51,645 nt of DNA. Source: Rhodospirillales bacterium (GTDB lineage: Bacteria > Pseudomonadota > Alphaproteobacteria > Rhodospirillales > Magnetospirillaceae). The position numbers and the translations under genes are program-made. The stretch's first letter is position 1. Each line of letters opens with the position of its first letter. Location: positions 1 through 51,645 of the forward strand of contig JAATGN010000306.1 of NCBI GenBank assembly GCA_015654615.1. Reading direction: 5' to 3'. Below are positions 39,521 through 51,445 of this stretch, piece by piece. The notes under the pieces were generated by a model that did no database searches, was not told where the DNA came from, and was given only the letters and a program-made list of their open reading frames with translations.

Positions 39521-39847
39521 CTATTTGGCGGGCGGCACGGCCCTGACGCGGCACAGCGATTTGCCGTCGACAAAAATCTCGAAGCGGCTGTCGTCGCCGT
39601 TGCTCCAGATCAGGCGCGACGCCGTGGCGACGGAGAGGGCGCCGGACCGCCTTTCGTCGATGATTTTCACGCCGTCCTGGAAACACTGAATTTCGAACAG
39701 AGGGGGCTGCTGGGGTGGGAGCGGACCGGAGGGGGCATCGGCCGAGACCGGCTGATTGTCCGATCTGATCTCGGCGCAGGCGACGCCGCCCATGAGGAGG
39801 AGAAGCAGAAGATTCGTCGCCACGCTCCCCGCGATGACGAGTGGCAC
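39521..39847 (-). CDS. Small exported protein of the envelope cluster, unknown function
   Basis: About 108 residues from a GTG at 39847, with an export-type hydrophobic core (NLLLLLLMGGVACA). The mature part contains a proline-rich stretch (SGPLPPQQPPL) and FEIQCFQDGVKII, then SRFEIFVDGKSLCRVRAV, probably a small beta domain with two cysteines. The start is uncertain: the GGGAGG site is only three bases from GTG 39847, and the first codons lie inside a CGCGATGACGA-type repeat (39811-39840), which may have replaced the original 5' end. It is the last gene of the cluster, 155 bases after the repeat protein. Confidence 0.55.
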   Translation of the reverse strand: MPLVIAGSVATNLLLLLLMGGVACAEIRSDNQPVSADAPSGPLPPQQPPLFEIQCFQDGVKIIDERRSGALSVATASRLIWSNGDDSRFEIFVDGKSLCRVRAVPPAK

Positions 39848-39980
39848 CGGCCTCCCTGCCGATGGAACGGACTCCGCCGCCGAGCGGCGGACACCGGCAG
39901 GGACGCCGGCGCCTCTTTGCCTTTTCGTCCAGGATGGGGCGGCCACCGGCCGGCGCGGAACTCGCAATGACGGCACTCCC
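39811..39980. repeat. Ends of CGTCATTGCGAG-type repeat
   Basis: GATTCGTCGCCACGCTCC...GCGATGACGA (39811-39840) and CTCGCAATGACGG (39961-39973) match the right end of the palindrome at 17173-17252. They occupy the gap between the last two cluster genes and overlap the presumed start of the 39521-39847 gene. Confidence 0.55.
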
Positions 39981-40002
39981 TTCAGTCGAAATGCCCAAAA
40001 CC

Positions 40003-41190
40003 CTAACGGCCGATGATCTGGTGGCTGGTGTCGGAATAGAGATAACAGACGCCGATTTCATCGACATAGCGGGGCGGGCACGGGTCGTCCGCCGGTTTCG
40101 GGAAAAAGTTGAGCACGCATAGGGCGTTGTGGATGTCGACGCAGCATTGGCCGTTGCGATAGGCCTTGCAGGCGCCGACGCTGCCGATCTCCAGATTGCC
40201 GCCTTTGTTGATGACGCTGCCTGAAATGGAGACGGTGCCGGTAACACGGCCGGCGTTCTCCGAGGTCGCGGTGCCGAGCAGGGTGGTGGCGTTCTGTCCC
40301 TTGGCAAGGGTCGTCACCTCGCCGCCCACCGAGACATTGAGGCGGGCGGAGCCGTCCGCCGCGCCGATTTCGGTCTTTCCGACGGCGCCGTTGGCCAGCG
40401 TCGTCACGCTGCCGCCCACCTGGGCGTTGATGGTGGCGTTGCCGCACTTGGCGGCGCCGATGCGCGTCTCGGCCATGCCGTTGTCGTTGGCGGCATTGGT
40501 GATGGATTGGGCGCTGGCATCGATATGGCCCTGGAAGCCGCAGCCTCCGCCGCCGCCGCCGCCGCCCCCGCCGCCGCTTGCCTTGTTCAATGGGAACAGG
40601 GCATCCCCGGCGGCATTCGCCACCGGCGTGATGACATAGCGGTCGACCAGGCTTTCCAGGATCGGCGCCGCGATCAGGCTGACCGCCCCGCAAGCGAGAA
40701 TTCCGGTGCCGGCGGTCATCGCCATGCAGATGGTGAACAGATTGCGCGGGTTGATCAGGACCGAGCCGAGCGATTCCAGGAAGGTCTGCACGGCGACGAC
40801 CGTCGCCGCGTGATCGTTGCCGTGAACCAGAAGGTCGGCCGCCCGCCGCATTCCGGCGAACAGATCGGCGTCCTTGAGCATGGTCTTCGCGGCGCCCTTG
40901 AGCGCCGACTTGCTGATCATCCCCGACAGACTGGCCGCCATCGACCCGGCCGAGGCGAAGCGCGTTCCGGCCAGGGACTTGGCCAGGCCGTCCTTCTGCG
41001 CAACCGTGAGAATCTGTTTGGTGATCGAATTCTTGTCGCTCAGGTCGCTCTTGAGATCGTTCCCGGCGTTCTCGAAGACATTGCCGCTGATGCCGCGGGT
41101 GTTCTGGGCGCCAAGCGGGGCGGCCAGGCCGCACAGCAGCATGACGGCGCCCAGCAGCGCCACGACGGCGCGACAACGGCGGCCGATCAT
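40003..41190 (-). CDS. Secreted repeat protein with polyglycine linker, candidate export substrate
   Basis: A 395-residue exported protein of no recognised family. Signal peptide about 1-28 (ALLGAVMLLCGLAAPLGAQ). An N-terminal region (30-203) includes a hydrophobic stretch near 150-180. Then eleven glycines (206-216), four degenerate repeats of about 30 residues (222-340: SITNAANDNGMAETRIGA, SVTTLANGAVGKTEIGA, EVTTLAKGQNATTLLGT, and one ending NLEIGSV) and a Cys-rich tail (341-395) with seven cysteines. The repeats resemble those of the small protein at 44497-44823, so both look like beta-repeat surface proteins. The start codon overlaps the previous gene's stop (ATGA). Export by the CsgG-like protein of the cluster is inferred. 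Confidence 0.75.
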   Translation of the reverse strand: MIGRRCRAVVALLGAVMLLCGLAAPLGAQNTRGISGNVFENAGNDLKSDLSDKNSITKQILTVAQKDGLAKSLAGTRFASAGSMAASLSGMISKSALKGAAKTMLKDADLFAGMRRAADLLVHGNDHAATVVAVQTFLESLGSVLINPRNLFTICMAMTAGTGILACGAVSLIAAPILESLVDRYVITPVANAAGDALFPLNKASGGGGGGGGGGGCGFQGHIDASAQSITNAANDNGMAETRIGAAKCGNATINAQVGGSVTTLANGAVGKTEIGAADGSARLNVSVGGEVTTLAKGQNATTLLGTATSENAGRVTGTVSISGSVINKGGNLEIGSVGACKAYRNGQCCVDIHNALCVLNFFPKPADDPCPPRYVDEIGVCYLYSDTSHQIIGR

Positions 41191-42152
41191 TTCGCCCCCC
41201 CTTGCAACAGGTCCACGAAGGCCAGGCGCGACAGGCCGAACTGGCCGTCCGGCTGTATTTTGTAGCCCGCCAGCAGCAGCCAGCGGCCGTTTTCGGGCAG
41301 CCCGGCCCAGATCAGGAAGCCGCCCTCCGCCACCTCGACCAGGCTGACCTCCAGCCGCGTGCGGAAGGCGGCGCCGTTTATGAAGGGCGAGAAATCGATC
41401 CGCGACTGGGCGTCGAGCTGTTGCGAAAGCTTCAGGCCGTCGCCCTTGGCGAGGCTGTCGAGCGTCTGATTGACGGCGCGCGCGGCTTGGGGATCGTTTT
41501 CCAGCCATTGCAGGGTGACATAGACCGAGGCGACCCGATCGATCAGCGCCGGCAGGTCGGGCCTGGCCGAAAGAGGAACCCGCCGATTCGACCCCGGCGG
41601 ATAGCGGCCGATGAATTCGGCCACGGCCGCGGTCGCCGAGGACTGCATGGCCTGGACCATATCCATCGAGGCCGGCTGCAGGGCCCAGCGCGGGCGCTCG
41701 CCGCCGCCCTTGCCCAGGCTGTTTCCCTTCACGGGGACGGCTTCGGCCAGCTTGGCGACGGCGCCCCGGAATTGCCAGCGGGTCAGCAGCCAGCAATCGA
41801 CGATGGAGTTGTAATAGCCGACGATCGGCGTCTCGGAATTTTCGGCGCCGAAAATCATCTGCGTCTTGCGAAAGAACAGCGACCACAAGCCGCTGGAACC
41901 GTCGGCGGTGACGTTCGGCAGCACGCTGGGGAAAACCGTTCCGCCTTCCCCGAAGCGCTGATTGATCTCCAGGGCGTTGGAGACGCCTTGCGTCCTCAGG
42001 CCCAGAGCCGCCTGCATCAGGGCGGCCTGCCTGGGATCGACCTTCGCCGCCGGAGGAGGCAGGCCCCCGTCCTGGGCCCGCGCCCCGTCCGGGTCCGGCA
42101 AGATGGCGGCAAGGGACAGGGCCAGAAGCAGGATGCGGGCGAGACGGCTCAC
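41187..42152 (-). CDS. Exported protein of the envelope cluster, unknown function
   Basis: A 321-residue protein that I do not recognise. The GTG at 42152 overlaps the upstream stop (GTGA), and its own stop overlaps the next start, so three genes are translationally linked. Signal peptide about 1-27 (ARILLLALSLAAILPDPDGARA). The mature part has a conserved-looking block QMIFGAENSETPIVGYYNSIVDCWLLTRW (quoted here in two parts of interest: the Glu-Asn-Ser motif and the Cys-Trp), then a mostly helical middle and a beta-rich end (RLEVSLVEVAEGGFLIWAG). It may be a periplasmic accessory factor for the repeat protein encoded next. No enzyme motif was seen. Confidence 0.75.
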   Translation of the reverse strand: MSRLARILLLALSLAAILPDPDGARAQDGGLPPPAAKVDPRQAALMQAALGLRTQGVSNALEINQRFGEGGTVFPSVLPNVTADGSSGLWSLFFRKTQMIFGAENSETPIVGYYNSIVDCWLLTRWQFRGAVAKLAEAVPVKGNSLGKGGGERPRWALQPASMDMVQAMQSSATAAVAEFIGRYPPGSNRRVPLSARPDLPALIDRVASVYVTLQWLENDPQAARAVNQTLDSLAKGDGLKLSQQLDAQSRIDFSPFINGAAFRTRLEVSLVEVAEGGFLIWAGLPENGRWLLLAGYKIQPDGQFGLSRLAFVDLLQGGAK

Positions 42153-42586
42153 TTCGCGCCTCCGGTGCAATCGGAGCGGGGCGTCTCGACGGTGCCGATC
42201 TGAATGCAGGAATTGTCGCCCTGGGTCTTCTTGATGGAATAGATGCCCTGGGCTTCGATGGTCGTCTCGACATGCCCCAATCGCGGCGGCTGGTCGTCCG
42301 GAACGGCATTGCCGGCCTTCAGCTGCTGCTCGGCGCGCAGGCGGGCCAGCCGCGCGGCATCCTGCTGCACCGGGTCGAGGAGCAGACCGGGCCGCTGCCC
42401 CTGTTGCAGCATCTTCACCTGGCCGTCGATGATGACGGTGGTCTTGGCCGGGCCGCCGTCCTGCTGCTGGGCGTCGGGCTGAACCATCGGCGTCGCCGTG
42501 GTGATGCCGATGTCCGAGGCCAGAGACGGCGGCGACAATACGACCAGACAAAGAACCCAGGAAACGGGACGAGACCTCGCGCTCAT
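42149..42586 (-). CDS. Small exported protein with one 'C-x-x-IG' repeat unit
   Basis: A 145-residue protein with a signal peptide (about 1-24). A central strand-like VIIDGQVKMLQQGQRPGLLL precedes a helical stretch (AARLARLRAEQQLKAG). The last 40 residues contain TTIEAQGIYSIKKTQGDN followed by SCIQIGTVETPRSDC, which matches one unit of the repeat seen in the other secreted proteins of this cluster. The start ATG 42586 is 14 bases after the CsgG-like gene's stop. It is probably a minor subunit or nucleator; that role is inference. Confidence 0.7.
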   Translation of the reverse strand: MSARSRPVSWVLCLVVLSPPSLASDIGITTATPMVQPDAQQQDGGPAKTTVIIDGQVKMLQQGQRPGLLLDPVQQDAARLARLRAEQQLKAGNAVPDDQPPRLGHVETTIEAQGIYSIKKTQGDNSCIQIGTVETPRSDCTGGAK

Positions 42587-42600
42587 GTCGGCCTGTCCCG

Positions 42601-44139
42601 TCACTTGACCTTGATCGTCACCACCTGGACGGTGGAATCGAATTTGTCGATGTCCAGATGCTGGTTCAGGATGTCCTTCAGCGTTCCTTCCTTGAGCGGG
42701 GTCAGGTCGGTTTCCTCCAGGGCGGCCGGCCTGATGCCGCCATAGGGTTTGGCGGTGGCGACGCAGGCCACGGCCTCGGCCGCCCCGGCCCGGTCCAGCA
42801 CCAGGCTGAACTTGTTGCCGGGAGGAATGGTGACCTTCTCCCCGGCGCCCACCGAGGGGCTGGGGCGGAAACGATTGGGAAATATCCGGGCGACGGTCCC
42901 GTCGGCCGACTGGTAATAGCAATAAAGGTCGACCGCCTTGGCCGTGTTGGCCGTCAGAAGCAGCTTGTCGCCCATATGGTATTCGGGGGCATTGGGAAGC
43001 AGCGACAGCCGGATGGCCTCGCCGCCGCCGGTAAGCCGGGCCGGCCGGTCCAGCGGCGGCTGCGGGACGGGTCTGCCCGATCCCCGGTCGTCGCTGCCGC
43101 CGCTGGTGACCAGTCCCTTGATCAGCATGGCGTAATAAAGATCGAAGCTGGGCCGCCCATTGGCGATCAGGTCGTTGGCGACCTGGTATCTGTTCACGGC
43201 GGTCAGCAGGTCGGGATTCATCCTGCCGTCGATCGGACCGGAATAGGAACCGTCGCGCTGCAGGCCGGCCTGTATCTGGCGGACACGATCCGGCTCGGTC
43301 ATCTGGTCATACCAGTCGCGGGCCTGGGTCATCATCTCCGGGTTGGTCGAATCGATGCCCAGGCAGCGCCAATACGGCACGCGGGCCAGTTTGCCCAGCA
43401 CCTCGATCACCCCCAATTCCACCAGGGTGCGGACGGCCTGGTTCGATCCCTCCGAGGTGTCGGACGACAGATTGAAGGTCAGGCTGGCCTTGGCGATCAG
43501 CCCCTGCACGTCGGCGCTGTCCTCGCGTCGGACCGTGGCGATCGTGTTGGTGGAGGAATAACCCGGCATGATCTGGCGGGTCCGGGTGTCGCCCAGGTTC
43601 AGATCCATCGAGACCAGCGACACCAGTTGATCCCGCGATGCTCCGACGGACAGGAACGGCAAGGCGAGGCCCGCGCCCTGTTTGTCGTTCATCACCCCCT
43701 GGTCGGCCTGGGTGATCGATCCGCGGACGTAATAGGTCGGGATGGTGATCTGGCTGGTGCCGACCCACTGGTCCTCGATGTAGAACACGGTATCGCCGTG
43801 ACGCTCCACGTCGACGAAGCGGTAGGCGCCGCTTTTCGCGGACATCTTGGCGATGGCGCTGATCATCATCTCCTTGGTGCCGGCCTTGATCTTGCCGGTA
43901 TCGTCGGGGATGCCGTCGCTGGTTATGACGATGTTCTGCTTGCCATAGGCCAGGAACATGTCGTCCATGCAGCGCAGCGCCTCGCTGAAGCTGGTCACGT
44001 TCTTGACCACCGGGGTTTTCGGCTGCACCGCCACCTGGGCTTTTTGCGGCGAGGGCTGTTGACACCCGGCCAGGAGCAGGCACCCGCAGAGAACCGCACG
44101 GCCGATGGAAGATCGCCAGGAATAGTTCGGCACGGCCAT
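42601..44139 (-). CDS. CsgG/HfaB-like outer-membrane lipoprotein with PG-binding and DUF4384-like domains
   Basis: A 512-residue lipoprotein: signal and lipobox LLLAGC place lipidation at Cys26. Residues about 45-260 resemble the CsgG/HfaB curli-type export channel (SFSEALRCMDDMFLAYG, YYVRGSITQAD, SLVSMDLNLGDTRTRQIMPG). About 280-345 looks like a peptidoglycan-binding repeat (GLQRDGSYSGPIDGRMNPDL), and about 370-465 like DUF4384 (YHMGDKLLLTANTAKAVDLY, VARIFPNRF). Canonical CsgG lacks the two extra domains. It may form the secretion pore for the neighbouring small repeat proteins. The ATG at 44139 touches the AAGGGG site, so the GTG at 44133 may be the true start. Confidence 0.78.
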   Translation of the reverse strand: MAVPNYSWRSSIGRAVLCGCLLLAGCQQPSPQKAQVAVQPKTPVVKNVTSFSEALRCMDDMFLAYGKQNIVITSDGIPDDTGKIKAGTKEMMISAIAKMSAKSGAYRFVDVERHGDTVFYIEDQWVGTSQITIPTYYVRGSITQADQGVMNDKQGAGLALPFLSVGASRDQLVSLVSMDLNLGDTRTRQIMPGYSSTNTIATVRREDSADVQGLIAKASLTFNLSSDTSEGSNQAVRTLVELGVIEVLGKLARVPYWRCLGIDSTNPEMMTQARDWYDQMTEPDRVRQIQAGLQRDGSYSGPIDGRMNPDLLTAVNRYQVANDLIANGRPSFDLYYAMLIKGLVTSGGSDDRGSGRPVPQPPLDRPARLTGGGEAIRLSLLPNAPEYHMGDKLLLTANTAKAVDLYCYYQSADGTVARIFPNRFRPSPSVGAGEKVTIPPGNKFSLVLDRAGAAEAVACVATAKPYGGIRPAALEETDLTPLKEGTLKDILNQHLDIDKFDSTVQVVTIKVK

Positions 44140-44144
44140 CCCCT

Positions 44145-44471
44145 TCAGTGGCACACGTTCACGACATTGCCCCGGATCACGACCGTATTGTCCTGATTCA
44201 AAGGTTGATTTCTGGAGGTCTGGGTGTTGCCGATCTGCAGCGGTCCGCAGGTATTGTTGATGACGTCCTGCGGCACCAGTCCCTGCTTGGTGTTTTCCTC
44301 GATGGCCGAATGAGAGAGGACACGGTTCATCTTGGCGTCGGCTTCGGGGGCGGATTGCGTTCGATCGTTCAATTCCTGCGCGGCGGCGCCGGCGGCGAAG
44401 CCTCCGACGCAAAGGAAGCAACCCAGCGCAAGCCGCCGCGCCGCGCGGAAGCGGGAATTTTTCGAAGCCAT
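44145..44471 (-). CDS. Small exported protein with Asn-rich 'IG' unit
   Basis: A 108-residue protein with a long signal peptide (about 1-31, ending GAAAQ). The middle is charged and helical (SAPEADAKMNRVLSHSAIEE). The last 40 residues contain DVINNTCGPLQIGNTQTSRN and then NQDNTVVIRGNVVNVC, with a Cys and an 'I-G' pair spaced as in the other secreted proteins here. It is five bases before the CsgG-like gene and 25 after the repeat protein gene, so it is part of one operon. Role unknown; a curlin-like minor subunit is one option. Confidence 0.7.
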   Translation of the reverse strand: MASKNSRFRAARRLALGCFLCVGGFAAGAAAQELNDRTQSAPEADAKMNRVLSHSAIEENTKQGLVPQDVINNTCGPLQIGNTQTSRNQPLNQDNTVVIRGNVVNVCH

Positions 44472-44496
44472 CCTTACCCCCCTTGCCGCCACCGGC

Positions 44497-44823
44497 TTAT
44501 TTTTCGCAGGCGTTCGTGCCGATCGAGCCGACGTCGACGCAGGCCTTGGAATTGTTCTTGGCCGAGTTGGTGATCTCCTGGGCGTTGGCGTTGATGGTGG
44601 TATTGCCGTTGATGGTGGTGTTGCCGTTGATGCGGCCGACCCCGACGTCCGCCGTCGAATTGTTTTCGGCCGAGTTGGTGATCTGCTTGGCCGTGGCGTT
44701 GATGGTGGTGTTGCCGTTGATCTTGACGCCCCCGGTTTCCTGCGCGACGGCGACCCCGCAAAACATCGACGTCGCGGCAAGCAGCGCGATCGCCGTCAGC
44801 GACGCTCTCGATTTTTGAATCAT
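44497..44823 (-). CDS. Small secreted repeat protein, candidate main surface subunit
   Basis: A 108-residue exported protein with signal peptide 1-28 (ending GVAVAQ). Two near-identical 30-residue repeats follow: INGNTTINATAKQITNSA... at 35-64 and INGNTTINANAQEITNSA... at 71-101, with one extra INGNTT at 65-70. The second ends ACVDVGSIG with a Cys. Regular Asn/Thr/Ser-rich repeats with alternating small and polar residues suggest a beta-solenoid or amyloid-like fold, functionally like curlins but with a different consensus. First gene of its operon, with a good GGGGAGAGGG site and a promoter at 44883-44910. Confidence 0.75.
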   Translation of the reverse strand: MIQKSRASLTAIALLAATSMFCGVAVAQETGGVKINGNTTINATAKQITNSAENNSTADVGVGRINGNTTINGNTTINANAQEITNSAKNNSKACVDVGSIGTNACEK

Positions 44824-44882
44824 GGCCCTCTCCCCACTTCAATGTAAGGCTGTATACTCACAAAGACATTCTATCAAAAATA

Positions 44883-44910
44883 ATAATATCGCCCCGATCA
44901 AGGTCTTCAA
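44883..44910 (-). promoter_or_regulatory. Promoter of the repeat-protein operon
   Basis: Minus strand: -35 TTGAAG (44905-44910), 16-base spacer, -10 TATTAT (44883-44888), in an AT-rich 124-base gap, about 60 bases before the start codon. Confidence 0.6.
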
Positions 44911-44947
44911 AGGCAAAACCTCGACGATCGATGGCATTTTCGTGAAA

Positions 44948-45607
44948 TCAGTTCCTCAACCGGATTTGCACCCGGCGATTTTCGCCGCTGGCGGGATCGG
45001 TTTCCGGCAGGGGCTCCTTCGGACCCTTGCCCAGCGCCACCAGCCGGTCCGGGGCGATGCCGTACTGGCTTTCCAGGGCGTCCCGCACCGTTCCGGCCCG
45101 GCCGCGGGAAAGGGTCATATTGTGCGCGAACTCTCCCGTCGCGTCGGTATGGCCTTCGATAATCAGCCTGGTCTGCGGATCGGCCTGGAGAAATTTGGCG
45201 ATGCTTTCCAGATAGGGGCCGGCTTCCGGTCGCAGCCGGGCGGAATTGAGATCGAAATGGATCTGAACGGCGACGGCCTTTTCCGAAACCGTCTCGGTCT
45301 GCCGCGGGGCTTGCGGGGCGGGCGCCTGGGCCTGGGGCGTCTCTCCCGCCGACGCGGGCTGGATCGACGGGCCGGCGGCAGGACCGGCGGGAGCCGCCTC
45401 GTTCAGGTCGATGACGATGGAGCGCGTCTTCATGTGCGGCGCGCCGCTGCCCAGGGCCGTCCGCAATTCGGACACGGACGGCGGCGAATGGAAGACGGTG
45501 ATGTCGTCGGCCCTGGCCGGGAAGGTCCCTGCGGCCAGGACCAGCCCGCCCGCCAGCGCGGCCATGGCGACCCGGGCGGACAAAACACGGTCAAAGGAAC
45601 AGGCCAT
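44948..45607 (-). CDS. OmpA-family periplasmic/outer-membrane protein
   Basis: A 219-residue exported protein. Signal peptide about 1-33. A Pro/Ala-rich spacer (about 75-105) leads to a C-terminal OmpA peptidoglycan-binding domain (about 110-219): IHFDLNSARLRPEAGPYLESIA, IIEGHTDATGEFAHNMTLSRGRA and ENRRVQIRLRN. The Asp of HTDATG and the Arg of the SRGRA/NRRV segments bind diaminopimelate in the family. There is no N-terminal beta barrel. It is the last gene of the caspase operon (24 bases after it). It likely anchors the system to the cell wall, together with the PG-binding domain of the CsgG-like protein. Confidence 0.88.
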   Translation of the reverse strand: MACSFDRVLSARVAMAALAGGLVLAAGTFPARADDITVFHSPPSVSELRTALGSGAPHMKTRSIVIDLNEAAPAGPAAGPSIQPASAGETPQAQAPAPQAPRQTETVSEKAVAVQIHFDLNSARLRPEAGPYLESIAKFLQADPQTRLIIEGHTDATGEFAHNMTLSRGRAGTVRDALESQYGIAPDRLVALGKGPKEPLPETDPASGENRRVQIRLRN

Positions 45608-45631
45608 CTTCGCCTCCTGCTTGGAACAAGG

Positions 45632-47266
45632 TCATTGGGGGGCGCTGAACGAGACGTTCACCCCGATCTGAAAAGGTTTGTCGCGCAGTTCGTTTTCCAG
45701 GGCGGCCATCAGCCGGAGCGTTCCGGGCTTGCCGTCCAGCTTTTCGAAGACGCGGTGCAAGCCGGTCAAGGGCTGGGCGGTGGCGACGGCCAGCAGATGG
45801 TCCGCACCGAAGGGTGGGCCCACCTTCAGCTCCAGCGAAAAGGCGCGGTCGAACGAAACCTCGAGCGGATCCCTGGCTCGCTCCGAATTCAGCGGATAGA
45901 GGAAATTGACGGTGCCGTCCGAGGACAGATTGAACACCGTCAGAAAGGTCAGCTTCTGGCCGGCGATGCTGAAGCGGACGCTCTGGCCGTCGCGGTGAAC
46001 CTTGTCGTCGGGGGCCAGGGCCATGTCGATGCCGCTGTGTTCGGCCAGGCCCTTCAGAGTGTCGACCATCAGCATCTTGTCGACGACCATCTGCACGCGG
46101 CCGAGGTCGGCTTGCGGATCGGCGGCCGGCGGCGTGGCGCCGTTCACCCTCACCAAGGCCCGGACCTCGCTGGTCGGGCCATAGGCGATGACGTCCCCCA
46201 ACTGGTTGGTGATCTCCCCGCGCGCCGCGTCCCACGTCAGGGCGGCCGCGCCGGGCGGGGCCAGGGCGACGCCGCGCAGCTTTTGCGCCAGGGCCTCCGG
46301 GCCGCTCGGGCCGGCGTTGATGATGGAGAGCGACAGCGCGCGCGGCTTGTCGAGGTCGGTCTTGACCGTGTTGGACGGGTCTTGCGCCGGCAGGGCGAGC
46401 TGGAAATCGCCGCGGATGGCGATTTCCGGATGCTGCTGCCCGTCGGTTTTCATCCGGACCACCCGGCGAATGAAGCTTTCGAGATCGGCCGATGCCAATA
46501 CGCCGCCCTTGCCGTCGCCGGCCTCGCCTTCCAGCGCCCTGGCGACGGCGTAGCTGAGAGCGCCGCGGGGGGCGCCGTCGATGAGGATCTCGGGATCGAG
46601 TTCGTCGGGCGGCACCGCGCCCAGATGGGCGACATGGGACAGTCGGACGTTGCCGTCCTCCTCGGCCGGACCCCGCATGCCCGGGCGGTTCGAAACCGGC
46701 GGCAGACGGTCGTCCTGCAGCGGCGGCAGGATGACGGAACGCACCTTGAACCCGGGTGACGCCCCATAGCTGCGGGTCATGGTGCCGGCATGGCAGGTGT
46801 CGACCACGAAAACGATGTGCAGCCGCGGCGCGCTTCGCAGCATTTCGCCGAATTCGGCGTCGATGATGCGTTGGTAGGTGCCCTCTCCCCTGACGTTGAA
46901 GTCCGCCAGCAGGACGAACTGCTGGAAGCCGGTTCGACCCGGCAGCGGCACCTTGGCGCCATGCCCGGCGAAGGTCAGGAACACGGTGTCGCCCGGCTTG
47001 GCCGTGCCGACGATGTCCTTCCAGGCGGCCAGGACGCTGTCGCGGTCGGCTTGGCGGTCGAGCAACAGGCGGACCTCCTTGGCCTTCAGCTTGCGCAGGG
47101 CCTGGGCGATGTCGCGGGCATCGTTGGCCGCGCCGTCCAGTTTGTCGACGTGCTGATAATCGTCGATGCCGATGACCAGACCGTAATACTCGGCCCGCGC
47201 CGCGCCGCCGAACCCGAGCATGGCCATGGCGGCCGCCACGGCGAGCAACAGGCGGCGGGCGGTCAT
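45632..47266 (-). CDS. Exported caspase-fold (peptidase C14) protein with DUF4384-like C-terminus
   Basis: A 544-residue protein. Signal peptide 1-25 (ending GGAARA). The caspase p20-type domain (about 26-260) starts YGLVIGIDDYQHVDKL and keeps the catalytic dyad His102 (TFAGHGA) and Cys158 (VVDTCHAG). The C-terminal third (about 400-520) has LTFLTVFNLSSDGTVNFLYP and ADHLLAVAT, like DUF4384. Caspase-like proteins usually act in the cytoplasm; the signal peptide puts this one in the periplasm. Its start overlaps the stop of the WD40-caspase gene (ATGA), so the two are made together. Confidence 0.87.
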   Translation of the reverse strand: MTARRLLLAVAAAMAMLGFGGAARAEYYGLVIGIDDYQHVDKLDGAANDARDIAQALRKLKAKEVRLLLDRQADRDSVLAAWKDIVGTAKPGDTVFLTFAGHGAKVPLPGRTGFQQFVLLADFNVRGEGTYQRIIDAEFGEMLRSAPRLHIVFVVDTCHAGTMTRSYGASPGFKVRSVILPPLQDDRLPPVSNRPGMRGPAEEDGNVRLSHVAHLGAVPPDELDPEILIDGAPRGALSYAVARALEGEAGDGKGGVLASADLESFIRRVVRMKTDGQQHPEIAIRGDFQLALPAQDPSNTVKTDLDKPRALSLSIINAGPSGPEALAQKLRGVALAPPGAAALTWDAARGEITNQLGDVIAYGPTSEVRALVRVNGATPPAADPQADLGRVQMVVDKMLMVDTLKGLAEHSGIDMALAPDDKVHRDGQSVRFSIAGQKLTFLTVFNLSSDGTVNFLYPLNSERARDPLEVSFDRAFSLELKVGPPFGADHLLAVATAQPLTGLHRVFEKLDGKPGTLRLMAALENELRDKPFQIGVNVSFSAPQ

Positions 47267-50200
47267 TGCGCGGCCCCGCTCAGGGGAAAGGGGGAAAGCT
47301 CGCCGCCGTCGCCGCCGAATTTGAAGACGGCCTTCTGCGTGTGGCGAGGGTTTTGCTCCGCGACCAGTTCGGGCACGCGCATGGTGACATAGGCCCCCAG
47401 GCCGATCTGGCTGACCGAGCCGCGTTTGTCGCTGGCCTCGCCGTTCAGCCCCTCGATCACGGCATAGGCGAAGGGGCCGTTGATCCCCTTGTAGCTGTCC
47501 AGGGCGGTTTGATCCGCCGATGCGGCGCCCAGGATGTAGAAGCTCTTGCCGAAGTCCTCGTGAATCTTGTCGATGACCGAGGTTTTCAGAGCTCCCGAAT
47601 GGCAGGTATCGAGAAGAAGAAAGATGTTTCTGGTGGGAATCTTGGCCAGATTGCTCTTGAACATGAATTGCGAGAAGGCGGTCTGGTCCAGGCGGTCGAT
47701 GTCGGTTTCCGACGTGATGAAGTAGTAAGGCGAGGTATTCTGCCGATCGTCGACGAAACCATGCCCGGCGAAATACAGGAAGACCGTGTCGTCGGGGCCG
47801 GCCTCGCGGGCCAACCGGTCGAAGGCCTTTTCAAGATTGCCGACGGTGACGTCGGAGTCATTCAGGACGGTTTCCTGGATGTCGCCATAGGATGCGGCGT
47901 GTTTCCGCTCCAACACCTGCACCACGTCGTGCATATCCTTGACGGCGAAACGCAAGGCGTTGGGGCCGCCATATCTGTCGATGCCCGCCGCCAGGATCAT
48001 CAGGCGGGGCTTGGTCGCGGCCTGGAGCGGAGCGTCCTCGTTCCGGGCGGCGACGATGAAGTCCACCCGCGTCGACACGGCGTCCACGGCGTTGCCTTCG
48101 TTGTAGGCGCGCACCCACACTTCATTGCGGCCCGGCGGCAGGCCGATATCGCGTTCCCGGACGCCGTCCCGAGGTGCGGAGGACCCGGCCCGACCGAAGC
48201 CCCGCGTGTTGTCCACCAGGCGCCCGTTGACGAAGATATCCACATCGCCGATGCCGCCCTGGCGGTCGCTTACCTTGAAGCGGAGCCTGATGCCGTTGGT
48301 TCCGGCGGGAAGCGTGGCGACGGCGATGGGCGTCTCGCCGTTCTGGCCCGAAGGCGACGCCTCCTGGCGGGAGAAGCCGCGCGTCGCCGCGGCCTCGACC
48401 GACACGCAGGCGCCGGCCTTGGCGCCGGCCGAGGGTTTCAGGTCGGCGCGGGCCAGGCCGCGCGTGCCCTCCATGCTCAGGGGGCAGTATTCGACCAGTT
48501 CCACCGACGGCGCCGGCCTTTCGCCCAGAACTTTGGTGATCGAGCCGATCTTGGCCAGCTTGGCCCTGATCTCGTCGTCCGCCGAACCGTTCACCTTTCT
48601 GGCGATCAGTTCGGGCGCGTAGAACAGCTGATAAAGGCGGTCGAACTCGACCCATTCCGGGGTGGATCGGGCCCCATGGTTGATCTGGTAGCCGACGATG
48701 TCGGCGTTTCCGCCGTCGGAATGGGCAAAGAAACCCTCATGAGTCCAGGCCATCCAGCGCGATCCGTCGCCGCGCACGAACAGCACGGCCAGTTCGGACA
48801 GCGGATCGGGACCGTCCAGGCTAACCCAGCGCAGGGTGCCGTCGCCCAGTGCGGCCACGGCCACCTTGCCCAGGCGGGCGGCGGCAATCCCCCAGACTTC
48901 TCCCGGCATGACGACCGAGGCCACAACCTGGCCCCGGGCGTCCAGGAGTTTCAATCCTTCCGACGTGCCCAGCAAAACTCGGTCGCCGCCCGGCAAGACG
49001 GCGACGCTGCGCGCCAGTTCGCCGGGATGCAACGCGACCGGCCGGCCGTTGAGCTTGGGCCGGGGCGCGTTTTTCCAATCGCTGACGGAGATTTTGCCGG
49101 CCGAGGCGGCGGGCCGGTCGATGTGGGGGTCCCCGGGCGGGTCGGCGGTCAGTTTGAGCTGGACCAGATCGGCTCGCACCGACCGTTTGCCGCCTTGACC
49201 GAGGCCGAAATCGACAATCGTGCCGTCTTCGGACAGGCCGAAACGGCCGTCGGCGATGTCGCGGAAATCGGCGATCTGGCCGTCGACCACGGGCCCGAGC
49301 TTTCCTTCGCCGTTCATCCATCCCCAGGAGGGATCGGCCGAAGCGAACAGCACGCCGCCGGCCTTGGGCGCGAAAAGGTGCATGACGGCGTCGCGGGCGA
49401 CCTCCACGTCCCGGGCGGCACCCGAACCGCCGTCCCCCCACCGTCGCACGACCACCTTGCCGGCCTTGTCGCGGGCCGAGCCGGCAGCCATCAGGTCGCG
49501 TCCGTCGGCGCTCCAGGCCACCGCGGCGAGGTTGCCGCCGGTCAGCCCCCGCGAGTCGACGCTGTAGAGCGGTTTGGCGGTGGCGGCGGCCGTCAGCACG
49601 TCCACCCGGCCGACATCCTCGTATCCCACCGCCAGCTTGGTTCCATCGGGGGAAAAGGCCGCCGACAGGGGCTTCCTGCCGGCGGTCCTGGTTTTGACGA
49701 CCAGCTTGTAGGCGGCGTCATACAATCGAATGAAACCGTCCCGGCTGACCGTGGCGACGCGGCCCGAGCGGTCGAAGCACAGCGCCGTGGCGACGTCCGC
49801 ATAGTCCTTGTCTTCGCGCAGCAGCTTTCCGTCGGCGGCGTTCCAGACGGCGAAACCGCCGTGGCCGCTGAACACGGCGGCGAAGACGGTGCCGTCCGGT
49901 GAAAAGGCAAGATCGTTGGCCAGATCCGGCAGGTGCGACAGGCGGGCCTTCAGCTGCCGCCGGTCGACGTCGAAGACATAGATGGAATAGGTGCCGTCCC
50001 AGCTGCCGCCGGTATATCCGCTCGCCAACAGCGTTTTGCCGTCGGGAGACAGGGCGGTGGAATAGAGGCTGCCTTCAGGGCCGTCGCCGATCGGAACCCG
50101 CAAGGTCGCGTTCAGGCGGCCGTCGGGAAAGCTCCACAACCGTACCGTCTTGTCGAGGGATGCGGTCGCCAGCACGGTCTGGTCGGCATTCATCGCGAGA

Positions 50201-50343
50201 TGGGTGACGACGGCGGTGTGACGTCCGATCTCGATGCGCAGGATCGGGTCGGAGGACGGGGACGCCGCCTGGGCCGCGCCGGCGAAGGCGAGACACAGCC
50301 CGACCGCCAGAAAGAACGCGCCGACCCGCCGCGCTTCCGTCAT
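47263..50343 (-). CDS. Exported WD40-repeat caspase-fold protein
   Basis: A 1026-residue protein. ATG 50343 is chosen (a GGGATGG site lies upstream and a clean signal peptide ends AGAAQA); ATG 50361 would add six residues. The N-terminal half has WD40-type propeller repeats (LATASLDKTVRLWSFPDG, DLAFSPDGTVFAAVFSG, VATVSRDGFIRLYD, AAFSPDGTKLAVGYED), then a middle domain that includes a WVRAYNEGNAVD-like Ig segment. The C-terminal caspase domain (about 770-1000) keeps His861 (FLYFAGHG) and Cys914 (LLLDTCHSG). The propeller probably senses or binds a partner; its substrate is unknown. Coupled to the second caspase gene. Confidence 0.88.
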   Translation of the reverse strand: MTEARRVGAFFLAVGLCLAFAGAAQAASPSSDPILRIEIGRHTAVVTHLAMNADQTVLATASLDKTVRLWSFPDGRLNATLRVPIGDGPEGSLYSTALSPDGKTLLASGYTGGSWDGTYSIYVFDVDRRQLKARLSHLPDLANDLAFSPDGTVFAAVFSGHGGFAVWNAADGKLLREDKDYADVATALCFDRSGRVATVSRDGFIRLYDAAYKLVVKTRTAGRKPLSAAFSPDGTKLAVGYEDVGRVDVLTAAATAKPLYSVDSRGLTGGNLAAVAWSADGRDLMAAGSARDKAGKVVVRRWGDGGSGAARDVEVARDAVMHLFAPKAGGVLFASADPSWGWMNGEGKLGPVVDGQIADFRDIADGRFGLSEDGTIVDFGLGQGGKRSVRADLVQLKLTADPPGDPHIDRPAASAGKISVSDWKNAPRPKLNGRPVALHPGELARSVAVLPGGDRVLLGTSEGLKLLDARGQVVASVVMPGEVWGIAAARLGKVAVAALGDGTLRWVSLDGPDPLSELAVLFVRGDGSRWMAWTHEGFFAHSDGGNADIVGYQINHGARSTPEWVEFDRLYQLFYAPELIARKVNGSADDEIRAKLAKIGSITKVLGERPAPSVELVEYCPLSMEGTRGLARADLKPSAGAKAGACVSVEAAATRGFSRQEASPSGQNGETPIAVATLPAGTNGIRLRFKVSDRQGGIGDVDIFVNGRLVDNTRGFGRAGSSAPRDGVRERDIGLPPGRNEVWVRAYNEGNAVDAVSTRVDFIVAARNEDAPLQAATKPRLMILAAGIDRYGGPNALRFAVKDMHDVVQVLERKHAASYGDIQETVLNDSDVTVGNLEKAFDRLAREAGPDDTVFLYFAGHGFVDDRQNTSPYYFITSETDIDRLDQTAFSQFMFKSNLAKIPTRNIFLLLDTCHSGALKTSVIDKIHEDFGKSFYILGAASADQTALDSYKGINGPFAYAVIEGLNGEASDKRGSVSQIGLGAYVTMRVPELVAEQNPRHTQKAVFKFGGDGGELSPFPLSGAAQ

Positions 50344-50386
50344 GATGTTCCATCCCGCCATCCCCGGACGATCCTTAGTTTCGCGC

Positions 50387-51445
50387 TCAGAGGCTGCTCC
50401 GGCATTCGGCGGAAGCCAGATACCGTGGTTGGATCACAAGGCTCGTCTTCGCCGCCGCCGGCAAGGCGCTTTCGAAGCCGTCGGGATTGCTGGCCATGGC
50501 GGCCTGCTTCTTCTGGTCCGCCGAGGCCGTTTCCACCGCTGCCTTGTAGGACTGGATGCGGACCTGCGCCGTCGTGGTCGGCACCGTCGCCGTGGCCTTG
50601 ACCCTCAGGGCCGCCAGTTCGGCACTGTGATCGGCATCCTTCTGTTTCCGCAGATCGTCGTATTCCTGGATCTTCTTCTTGTTATGAGCCTTCCTGGCGG
50701 CGGTCTTCTTCTTCTCGATGTCGTCGTTCTCGGCGACCTGCTTGGCTCTCAGCTCGTCCGTCTGCTTCTTCAGCTCGGCCTCCTGGGCATCGCTCCACGG
50801 CAACGCCCCTATTTTCTGGCTAGCGTCGTCGAACTGGGACAGGTGCTCGCTCATATGCTTGCCCATGGCGTCGGCGATTTCGATGTCCTTGGCCTTGCGA
50901 TCGACCAGGGTACGCCAGCGGACGGTCGCCTCTTCACGGCTGATGCGTTTGGCGTTGTAGTCGGCGACCACCTGGGCCATCGCCTGGTTACGGCAGTCGG
51001 TCAGCTTCTTGAAGGCCAGGTCGGCCTCGTCGATCTTGGCCAGTTCCCGATCGTAATCGGACATGACGGACTGATAGAGGACGGCCTTGTCCTTCTCCTG
51101 CTGCATCTTGCTGTAGATGTAGCCGCCGGCGGCGCCGGCCGCCGCGCCGGTCAGGGCGCCGATGGCCGCCCCCTTGGCGGCGTCCTTCGAAACCAAGGCG
51201 CCCGTCAGCGCGCCGGTCACCGCGCCGGTGAGCATTCCGGTCAACATCGATTCGGCGAAATAATCGCCCGTGGCGTCCAGCGCCACCAGATTGGCCCGGC
51301 AGACATCCGTTCCGTCGTCGATGCCGATGCGCCCCGCCTGGGTGGTGACGCAGGCGGACAAGAGAAACGATGAGGAAACCACGACAGCCACGGTGCGGCG
51401 GGCCCGGCTGGGACGCCGATTGTTGCAGGCATGAACGACGCTCAA
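50387..51445 (-). CDS. Glycine-zipper lipoprotein with long coiled coil
   Basis: A 352-residue lipoprotein and first gene of the caspase operon. The TTG at 51445 is preferred because a GGGGGAT site lies seven bases upstream. The lipobox LLSAC follows a short hydrophobic stretch (TVAVVVSSSFLLSAC). A glycine-zipper segment GMLTGAVTGALTGALV and AIGALTGAAAGAAGG (about 70-115) could span or pack in a membrane. The rest (about 120-300) is rich in Lys, Glu and Ala, predicted as a long coiled coil (EAELKKQTDELRAKQVAEND, EKKKTAARKAHNKKKIQE). No enzymatic motif. It may bridge the envelope layers for the caspases and OmpA protein. Confidence 0.82.
   Translation of the reverse strand: MSVVHACNNRRPSRARRTVAVVVSSSFLLSACVTTQAGRIGIDDGTDVCRANLVALDATGDYFAESMLTGMLTGAVTGALTGALVSKDAAKGAAIGALTGAAAGAAGGYIYSKMQQEKDKAVLYQSVMSDYDRELAKIDEADLAFKKLTDCRNQAMAQVVADYNAKRISREEATVRWRTLVDRKAKDIEIADAMGKHMSEHLSQFDDASQKIGALPWSDAQEAELKKQTDELRAKQVAENDDIEKKKTAARKAHNKKKIQEYDDLRKQKDADHSAELAALRVKATATVPTTTAQVRIQSYKAAVETASADQKKQAAMASNPDGFESALPAAAKTSLVIQPRYLASAECRSSL

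Follow-up and report, generated by a model that had tools for sequence, protein, structure and literature searches.

The stretch of DNA analysed here, referred to as the window, is the entire contig JAATGN010000306.1 (C44; 51,645 bases) of the Rhodospirillales assembly GCA_015654615.1 (G000; 5.7 Mb in 466 contigs). Between positions 39521 and 51445 it carries eleven consecutive open reading frames, all on the minus strand (from a listing of open reading frames, with starts inspected), and a Sec-type or lipoprotein signal was recognised by eye at the start of every product. Three junctions show 4-base overlaps, namely g2/g3 (47263/47266), g8/g9 (42149/42152), and g9/g10 (41187/41190). The remaining intergenic gaps measure 5–43 bases, except for 124 bases between g4 and g5 and 26 or 155 bases before g11, the latter depending on the uncertain start of that gene. 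An earlier note, made from the letters alone, had described eleven same-strand genes, several of them overlapping, and this layout was confirmed. The features of the locus, which is built around the HfaB/CsgG-like lipoprotein gene g7, are as follows:

g1, 50387..51445, minus strand: glycine-zipper lipoprotein of 352 residues, distantly TagQ-like; TTG start uncertain, lipobox LSAC assigned by eye
g2, 47263..50343, minus strand: 1026-residue protein with a WD40 propeller and a caspase domain (Peptidase_C14), probably exported; signal peptide by eye
g3, 45632..47266, minus strand: 544-residue caspase with a C-terminal DUF4384-like domain, probably exported; signal peptide by eye
g4, 44948..45607, minus strand: 219-residue protein with an OmpA domain of the peptidoglycan-binding type (Pfam OmpA, 1.6e-16), probably exported
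Weak sigma-70-like promoter site upstream of g5, 44883..44910, minus strand: found by consensus scan; possible start of a second operon
g5 (REP), 44497..44823, minus strand: small secreted protein with two repeats of ~36 residues and a Cys pair in the last
g6, 44145..44471, minus strand: small secreted protein with the conserved C-terminal motif G(D/N)V(I/V)N.C
g7, 42601..44139, minus strand: HfaB/CsgG-like lipoprotein of 512 residues with PG_binding_1 and DUF4384
g8, 42149..42586, minus strand: 145-residue secreted protein whose C-terminal motif SC..IG.V......C resembles the last REP repeat
g9, 41187..42152, minus strand: 321-residue secreted protein with no Pfam or NCBIfam match; one relative recognised (L092)
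g10, 40003..41190, minus strand: 395-residue secreted protein with REP-like repeats and a Cys-rich C-terminal part
g11, 39521..39976 (start 39976 or 39847), minus strand: small, probably exported protein

Family-library scans (Pfam and NCBIfam) and PADLOC covered ten of these proteins, g1–g10, and Pfam and NCBIfam returned no credible family for g5, g6, g8, g9, or g10. The domain assignments proposed in the earlier note were largely borne out, with Pfam recognising the glycine-zipper lipoprotein (g1) and the OmpA-domain protein (g4), together with Peptidase_C14, WD40, and the DUF4384 domain of g7, while the Pfam CsgG profile found nothing and DUF4384 on g3 stayed under its threshold. Weak relatives of g11 occur in four other loci (L044, L049, L138, and L140). 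The promoter consensus scan of the region gave 4 sites against 1.5 expected and is no evidence of function.

The central observation concerns g7, whose N-terminal HfaB-homologous domain is followed by PG_binding_1 (Pfam, 1.8e-7) and DUF4384 (5.4e-14). Alignment of the g7 family with four HfaB-type proteins gave an hhalign probability of 98.5 and an E value of 1.9e-15 over 241 columns; one of the four (L025) matches Pfam CsgG at 5.8e-18, and its gene adjoins hfaA- and hfaD-like genes recognised by eye. The HfaB profile retrieves solved CsgG chains (9.4e-20), and a joint profile of g7 and its HfaB relatives, which contains HfaB rows, reaches CsgG at 1.4e-14 with an alignment spanning CsgG 45–243, a stretch that presumably passes through the pore region. 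The NCBIfam equivalog for HfaB (NF037935) also matches g7 (4.9e-11, 42.3 bits), under its cut-off of 300. The lipobox residue Cys26 is invariant in 10/10 aligned rows, and lipidation is predicted from the sequence. The CsgG/HfaB-like lipoprotein postulated earlier was correctly identified, although the relationship is visible through HfaB only (hhalign, NCBIfam). Judged by these profile comparisons, g7 is a member of the HfaB/CsgG superfamily and not an orthologue of either HfaB or CsgG. Its closest relative in the named collection, and the sole one found there, belongs to an uncultured Rhodopila metagenome-assembled genome (42% identity).

Proteins closer to the classical type occur in some of the same genomes. 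G014 encodes a canonical CsgG/HfaB protein (L098, on contig G014:C221; Pfam 1.3e-28) followed by a large secreted HfaD-like frame recognised by eye, and since this genome also holds a g7-type locus of its own, the two types can coexist. In the G527 locus, a second CsgG-domain protein (L102, at L091:14092-15189; Pfam 3.6e-7) is encoded just downstream of the caspase gene.

The conservation of the neighbourhood was evaluated in other genomes, sixteen profiles being applied to the loci. A search of the order gave 16 g7 matches in 15/317 genomes, window included, and searches of the class and phylum sampled 385 and 398 genomes, respectively. The resulting 36 g7 loci comprise the order matches at E <1e-100, five from the class, the Rhodopila genome, and 14 sites that the phylum search supplied. 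They include L143, although it is cut by a contig end (445 residues of g7), and omit L096 and L097, in which the full g7 architecture is absent, L051–L053, the partial or weak phylum matches in G698, G793, G850, G382, G729, and G795, and the match in G062 (L052), which has no DUF4384. Profiles for the tally took their rows from the window together with nine loci (L002 and L043–L050), not every profile drawing on all nine, and were applied with separate cut-offs, so that a REP match of 2e-3 in L044 fell outside; L136–L149 (14 loci) form an independent set.

Within 10 kb of g7, the 36 loci hold OmpA-domain genes in 22 cases, relatives of g6 (G6) in 17, REP genes in 16, and caspase genes in 14, along with CHASE2 proteins (9), Crp-type regulators (8), WD40-caspases (5), FGE-caspases (5), relatives of g10 (G10; 4), and g1-like genes (4); these are lower bounds because several contigs end inside 10 kb. 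The independent set behaves similarly, with OmpA in 8 of its 14 loci, REP in 7, G6 in 10, and a caspase in 4. Under the assumption of randomly scattered genes and independent genomes, a caspase gene lies within 10 kb of g7 in 8/20 genomes against 0.28 expected (maximum 5 in 200,000 simulations), and OmpA in 13/20 against 1.22 expected (maximum 9). The 8/20 do not count the adjacent WD40-caspase of L043, which escapes Pfam at 1e-5. Across the order, a C14 gene is present in 14/15 genomes with g7 and in 95/302 without it (Fisher p 1.9e-6, uncorrected for relatedness), and in G015, G527, G560, and G135 the sole C14 match sits in the locus. Absence of co-conservation had been named in advance as the outcome that would overturn the grouping; the grouping survived, a partial set of the genes recurring near g7. 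Accordingly, g7 is linked to caspases far above chance, yet not universally.

Gene order is also retained in distant relatives. In L090, from another family, one same-strand run contains REP, REP, G6, g7, G10, OmpA, glycine-zipper, WD40-caspase, and caspase genes, the two caspase genes overlapping by the same 4 bases as g2/g3 of the window; counterparts of g8, g9, and g11 were not recognised there. The order REP(-REP)-G6-g7-OmpA recurs outside the class in L137–L141, and L141 places WD40-caspase, caspase, REP, REP, G6, g7, and OmpA in a row. L107, a short contig without g7, shows the glycine-zipper, WD40-caspase, and caspase genes with the same overlap. Because of these layouts and that of L106, described below, the locus can be divided into an export module (REP, G6, g7, and OmpA) and a caspase module (g1, g2, and g3), which often, but not always, travel together.

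A second type of locus (L002, L044, L047, and L085) combines g7 with an FGE-caspase, a CHASE2 protein, and a Crp regulator. The CHASE2 protein of L044, the only one scanned, has a cyclase domain. By profile tally, these four loci contain neither REP nor G6; a different secreted family is common to them and to L086 and L088, which likewise have no REP or G6. The types overlap, with L049 joining an FGE-caspase to REP, G6, and OmpA, and L050 placing a non-FGE caspase beside CHASE2 and Crp genes. G514, G520, and G521 have the FGE-caspase on a separate contig, where it is still accompanied by CHASE2 and Crp genes; in G386 its neighbours are CHASE2 and a G6-like gene. Caspases linked to g7 therefore show three architectures: WD40, FGE, and plain. 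Two further features of second-type loci deserve mention. An MscS-type channel with a cyclic-nucleotide-binding domain is encoded near g7 at L047:14519-15964, with relatives in L002, L044, and L046; its presence alongside the CHASE2 cyclase hints that loci of this kind use cyclic nucleotides for signalling. Secreted proteins with tandem Asn/Gln/Gly-rich repeats (ANQST.T.GG.A.G), resembling fibre subunits, are encoded at L002:3401-3991 and L047:18032-18727.

The two caspase-fold proteins of the window match Pfam Peptidase_C14 (g2, 6.2e-13; g3, 1.9e-15), and g2 also matches WD40 (9.8e-19). DUF4384, which g7 carries, recurs on g3 at 1.2e-5 and 25.7 bits, just under the cut-off of 27. As had been claimed, the His/Cys dyad is intact in both proteins (AGHG / DTCH), which fall within the C14 family by their p20 domain, and their export signals were judged by eye. 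Both dyad residues are kept in 25/27 aligned caspase proteins; of the two exceptions, L043 shows its Cys by eye and L111 is cut at a contig end. All seven further caspases of the independent set (7/7) also bear both motifs. This retention argues for preserved catalysis, not for any known substrate. The third member of the module, g1, matches Gly-zipper_YMGG (Pfam, 5.6e-9) and, under the cut-off of 300, the NCBIfam TagQ model (2.6e-16, 59.8 bits). Genes matched by the glycine-zipper (GLYZ) profile adjoin a WD40-caspase gene in 6/6 loci, counting L092, where the WD40 gene ends at the contig edge before its caspase part.

PADLOC matched its caspase model to g2 and g3, HEAT-ARM_XIII weakly to g2 (2.6e-4), and ZorB/MotB models to g4. 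These were set aside as shared-domain hits, and the scan revealed no known defence-system set among the ten proteins. The window genome has a third caspase gene on another contig (L110:5484-8069, G000:C35; an 861-residue open frame), and the genus mates G001, G003, and G004 each have one C14 match of similar score.

The candidate substrates of the apparatus are the small secreted proteins. The repeat of g5 follows approximately V.I.GN...N.A.G....A...IG.I. A REP profile built without the window finds g5 as its sole match in the window genome (E 5.6e-21) and detects REP proteins in 10/14 g7-bearing genomes, many at the g7 locus, the four without a match being G015, G560, G041, and G393. It also matches the g10 relatives of G527 and G596 (E 7.3e-5 and 6.9e-4). 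When scored against 500 shuffles each, the value for g8 (9.3 bits) was reached by none, that for g10 (4.8) by 1, and that for g6 (6.0) by 3, compared with 19/500 and 76/500 for the controls g9 and g4; the scores of g8, g10, and g6 are all low. Of the four secreted proteins said in the earlier note to share a repeat, g5 and g10 stand on these comparisons, g8 likely belongs with them, and g6 is marginal.

Relatives of g6 end in its C-terminal motif or near variants of it. A counterpart of g8 was recognised by eye in L091, and g10 has relatives in L090, L091, and L094; the window g10 has ~170 extra N-terminal residues, with a Gly-rich linker before the repeats, that these relatives do not share. 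REP proteins outside the class are N/Q/G-rich, and since nearly all of them have no Cys pair, this feature is not universal. A single-sequence AlphaFold2 prediction of g5 gave a mean predicted local distance difference test score (pLDDT) of 70 and a predicted template-modelling score of 0.45, with repeats near 80 and three strands per repeat; two of the five models were near 70 and the other three at 38–47. The model is suggestive of a beta-solenoid-like fold, and a Foldseek search of the PDB with it yielded no match. Weak Pfam matches of REP members to OMP_b-brl (6/11, best 4.5e-4) and the YdcK beta-solenoid (2/11, best 0.012) were not used. The idea of a cleavage site at a Lys/Arg before the last-repeat cysteine was dropped, having been a by-eye impression only, and some internal repeats share the Lys.

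Taken together, the locus is best interpreted as an HfaB/CsgG-type outer-membrane export and surface-assembly apparatus with an attached caspase module, a reading to which we assign a probability of roughly 55%. In this scheme, g5 and g10, and probably g6 and g8, would reach the periplasm by Sec, given their apparent signal peptides, and would then pass the outer membrane by way of oligomerised g7, as the homology of this lipoprotein suggests. The exported proteins may build a surface polymer or adhesin layer of ~36-residue beta-solenoid-like repeats. Attachment to the wall would be provided by g4, the OmpA protein, and by the PG_binding_1 domain in g7. The caspases g2 and g3, with the TagQ-like g1, would form a periplasmic module attached genetically in many, not all, genomes, and most likely cleave or survey the exported subunits or components of the apparatus according to the state of the envelope; this last step is the least certain. 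The curli-like, proteolysis-controlled system suggested in the earlier note is partly supported, control by proteolysis being its conjectural part. The caspase module is read as often linked and dispensable. A bolder version, in which this is an undescribed HfaB/CsgG-type secretion system with the periplasmic caspases as working parts that process repeat subunits or gate the channel when g1 senses envelope damage, is distinctly speculative and would probably not hold in that form.

Several results weigh against the apparatus as proposed. Pfam CsgG misses g7 and, with a limit as loose as E 10, matches nothing in the window genome, and the g7 family by itself retrieves no CsgG chain in a profile search of solved structures; the homology of g7 to CsgG needed HfaB as a bridge. 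An AlphaFold2 model of g7 from an alignment of two sequences reached a pLDDT of 38 and is unusable. None of the four genus mates searched carries g7, and the locus is therefore accessory. No caspase lies within 10 kb in 22/36 g7 loci, including L137–L139, L144, and L146–L148 outside the class, with ~9 kb on both sides. C14 matches are absent from two of the 20 genomes, G030 and G271; the latter, with a completeness rating of 100%, does encode g7, REP, G6, and OmpA. The caspase trio of G530 (L106) is ~14 kb away from g7, and the only caspase of G386, a one-contig genome, is ~2.6 Mb from it. In G572 and G573, the caspase-module genes are on contigs other than that of g7, in fragmented assemblies from which no distance can be read.

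In a rival reading, the caspases and g1 would be a separate envelope-damage or cell-death module that does no more than share a neighbourhood with the export genes. The resemblance of g1 to TagQ, which is required for the outer-membrane-damage response of the P. aeruginosa type VI secretion system (PMC11881912), fits such a module, as do the matches of the PADLOC caspase model to g2 and g3, the trio apart from g7 in G530, and the g7 genes without any C14 match in G271 or far from one in G386. The likeness of g1 to TagQ is at the same time a lead, no more, towards envelope sensing. What speaks against separateness is linkage to g7 above chance that recurs with WD40, FGE, and plain caspases alike. 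Exported caspases also sit awkwardly beside known defence systems, which are cytosolic, and we regard an independent module as rather unlikely. A different division of labour, held to be similarly improbable, would give g7 chiefly the anchoring role in the outer membrane that HfaB plays for holdfast, so that, together with the small repeat proteins, it would tether an exopolysaccharide or adhesin made elsewhere, with small-protein secretion serving only to build the anchor. This would suit the greater proximity of g7 to HfaB than to CsgG, the anchoring character of PG_binding_1 and OmpA domains, and the role of HfaABD in anchoring holdfast polysaccharide described in PMC6707917.

A further proposal, modelled on certain cell-death pathways that amyloid motifs switch on, casts the REP proteins as an amyloid signal that activates the caspases. 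Regular ~36-residue repeats with a beta-solenoid-like predicted model and the co-occurrence of caspases with REP in part of the loci would be compatible with it. The only structural row, HET-s (Z 2.9, root-mean-square deviation 5.8, one chain compared by VIA-align), is uninformative and was not used, and the Foldseek search was empty; moreover, the pathways known to work in this way are cytosolic, and here the REP proteins and the caspases alike look exported. This proposal is very improbable.

Apart from supposed cell death and cytosolic defence, most bacterial caspase homologues are not known to have a function. The present locus offers a defined group of partners open to experiment, in which two apparently exported caspases recur beside an outer-membrane export gene and its candidate substrates. 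It also broadens HfaB/CsgG-type secretion to subunit families and wall-anchoring domains that are new to it, both inside the class and outside it. If the bolder version were true, this would be, to our knowledge, the first bacterial surface-polymer pathway under the control of caspase-fold proteases.

Among known systems, the TagQRST envelope-damage pathway of type VI secretion resembles the locus in the TagQ likeness of g1 and in the FGE domain of some linked caspases, TagR being an FGE-like protein; it differs in that g1 scores far under the TagQ cut-off. The OmpA-domain models of type VI secretion proteins match g4 below their own cut-offs, and general scans of the ten proteins, which did not seek type VI genes in the locus, gave no other credible family of that system. 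The HfaABD holdfast anchor of Caulobacterales is similar in placing an HfaB/CsgG-superfamily outer-membrane lipoprotein beside small secreted proteins (by eye), and the arrival of HfaA and HfaD at the outer membrane depends on HfaB (PMC6707917). In contrast, g7 adds PG_binding_1 and DUF4384, OmpA and caspase genes are linked here, and the repeat proteins of the window locus have no credible family match.

With curli (csg), the locus shares a CsgG-superfamily lipoprotein and short repeat subunits, and the curli-like character suggested earlier stands to the extent of the superfamily. Curli itself does not apply, since Pfam CsgG misses g7 and the window genome has neither curlin repeats (PF07012) nor CsgE. 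Curlin repeats were present in 1/12 genomes, away from the g7 locus, and CsgE in 0/12. The genome in question is G386, where 14 matches, 13 of them exceeding the cut-off, lie at C1:5483213-5485684, a long way from g7; a curlin-repeat locus can hence coexist with the g7 type. Alphaproteobacterial curli systems likewise have no CsgE, and non-specific hits of the CsgG model are likely paralogues of a larger family, according to Dueholm et al. 2012 (PMC3521004); a word search of the main text of that survey finds neither caspase nor OmpA.

Metacaspase and orthocaspase operons (Asplund-Samuelsson et al. 2012) also contain caspase homologues with WD40 or FGE domains, and OmpA is reported in 14/217 metacaspase operons and multi-metacaspase operons are known in Alphaproteobacteria (PMC3501461). 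DUF4384 occurs in a clade of alphaproteobacterial pseudo-orthocaspases (PMC6426788). Unlike those operons, the cluster described here includes an export gene and secreted repeat proteins, and CsgG has 0 occurrences in the text of PMC3501461. No paper joining CsgG/HfaB with bacterial caspases was found among the open-licence matches listed, which is weak evidence of absence with the subscription literature outside. As the CsgG survey does not mention caspase or OmpA and the metacaspase survey does not mention CsgG, the locus is read as a relative of the known HfaB/CsgG apparatus that is new in its subunit families, its wall-binding domains, and the often attached caspase module.

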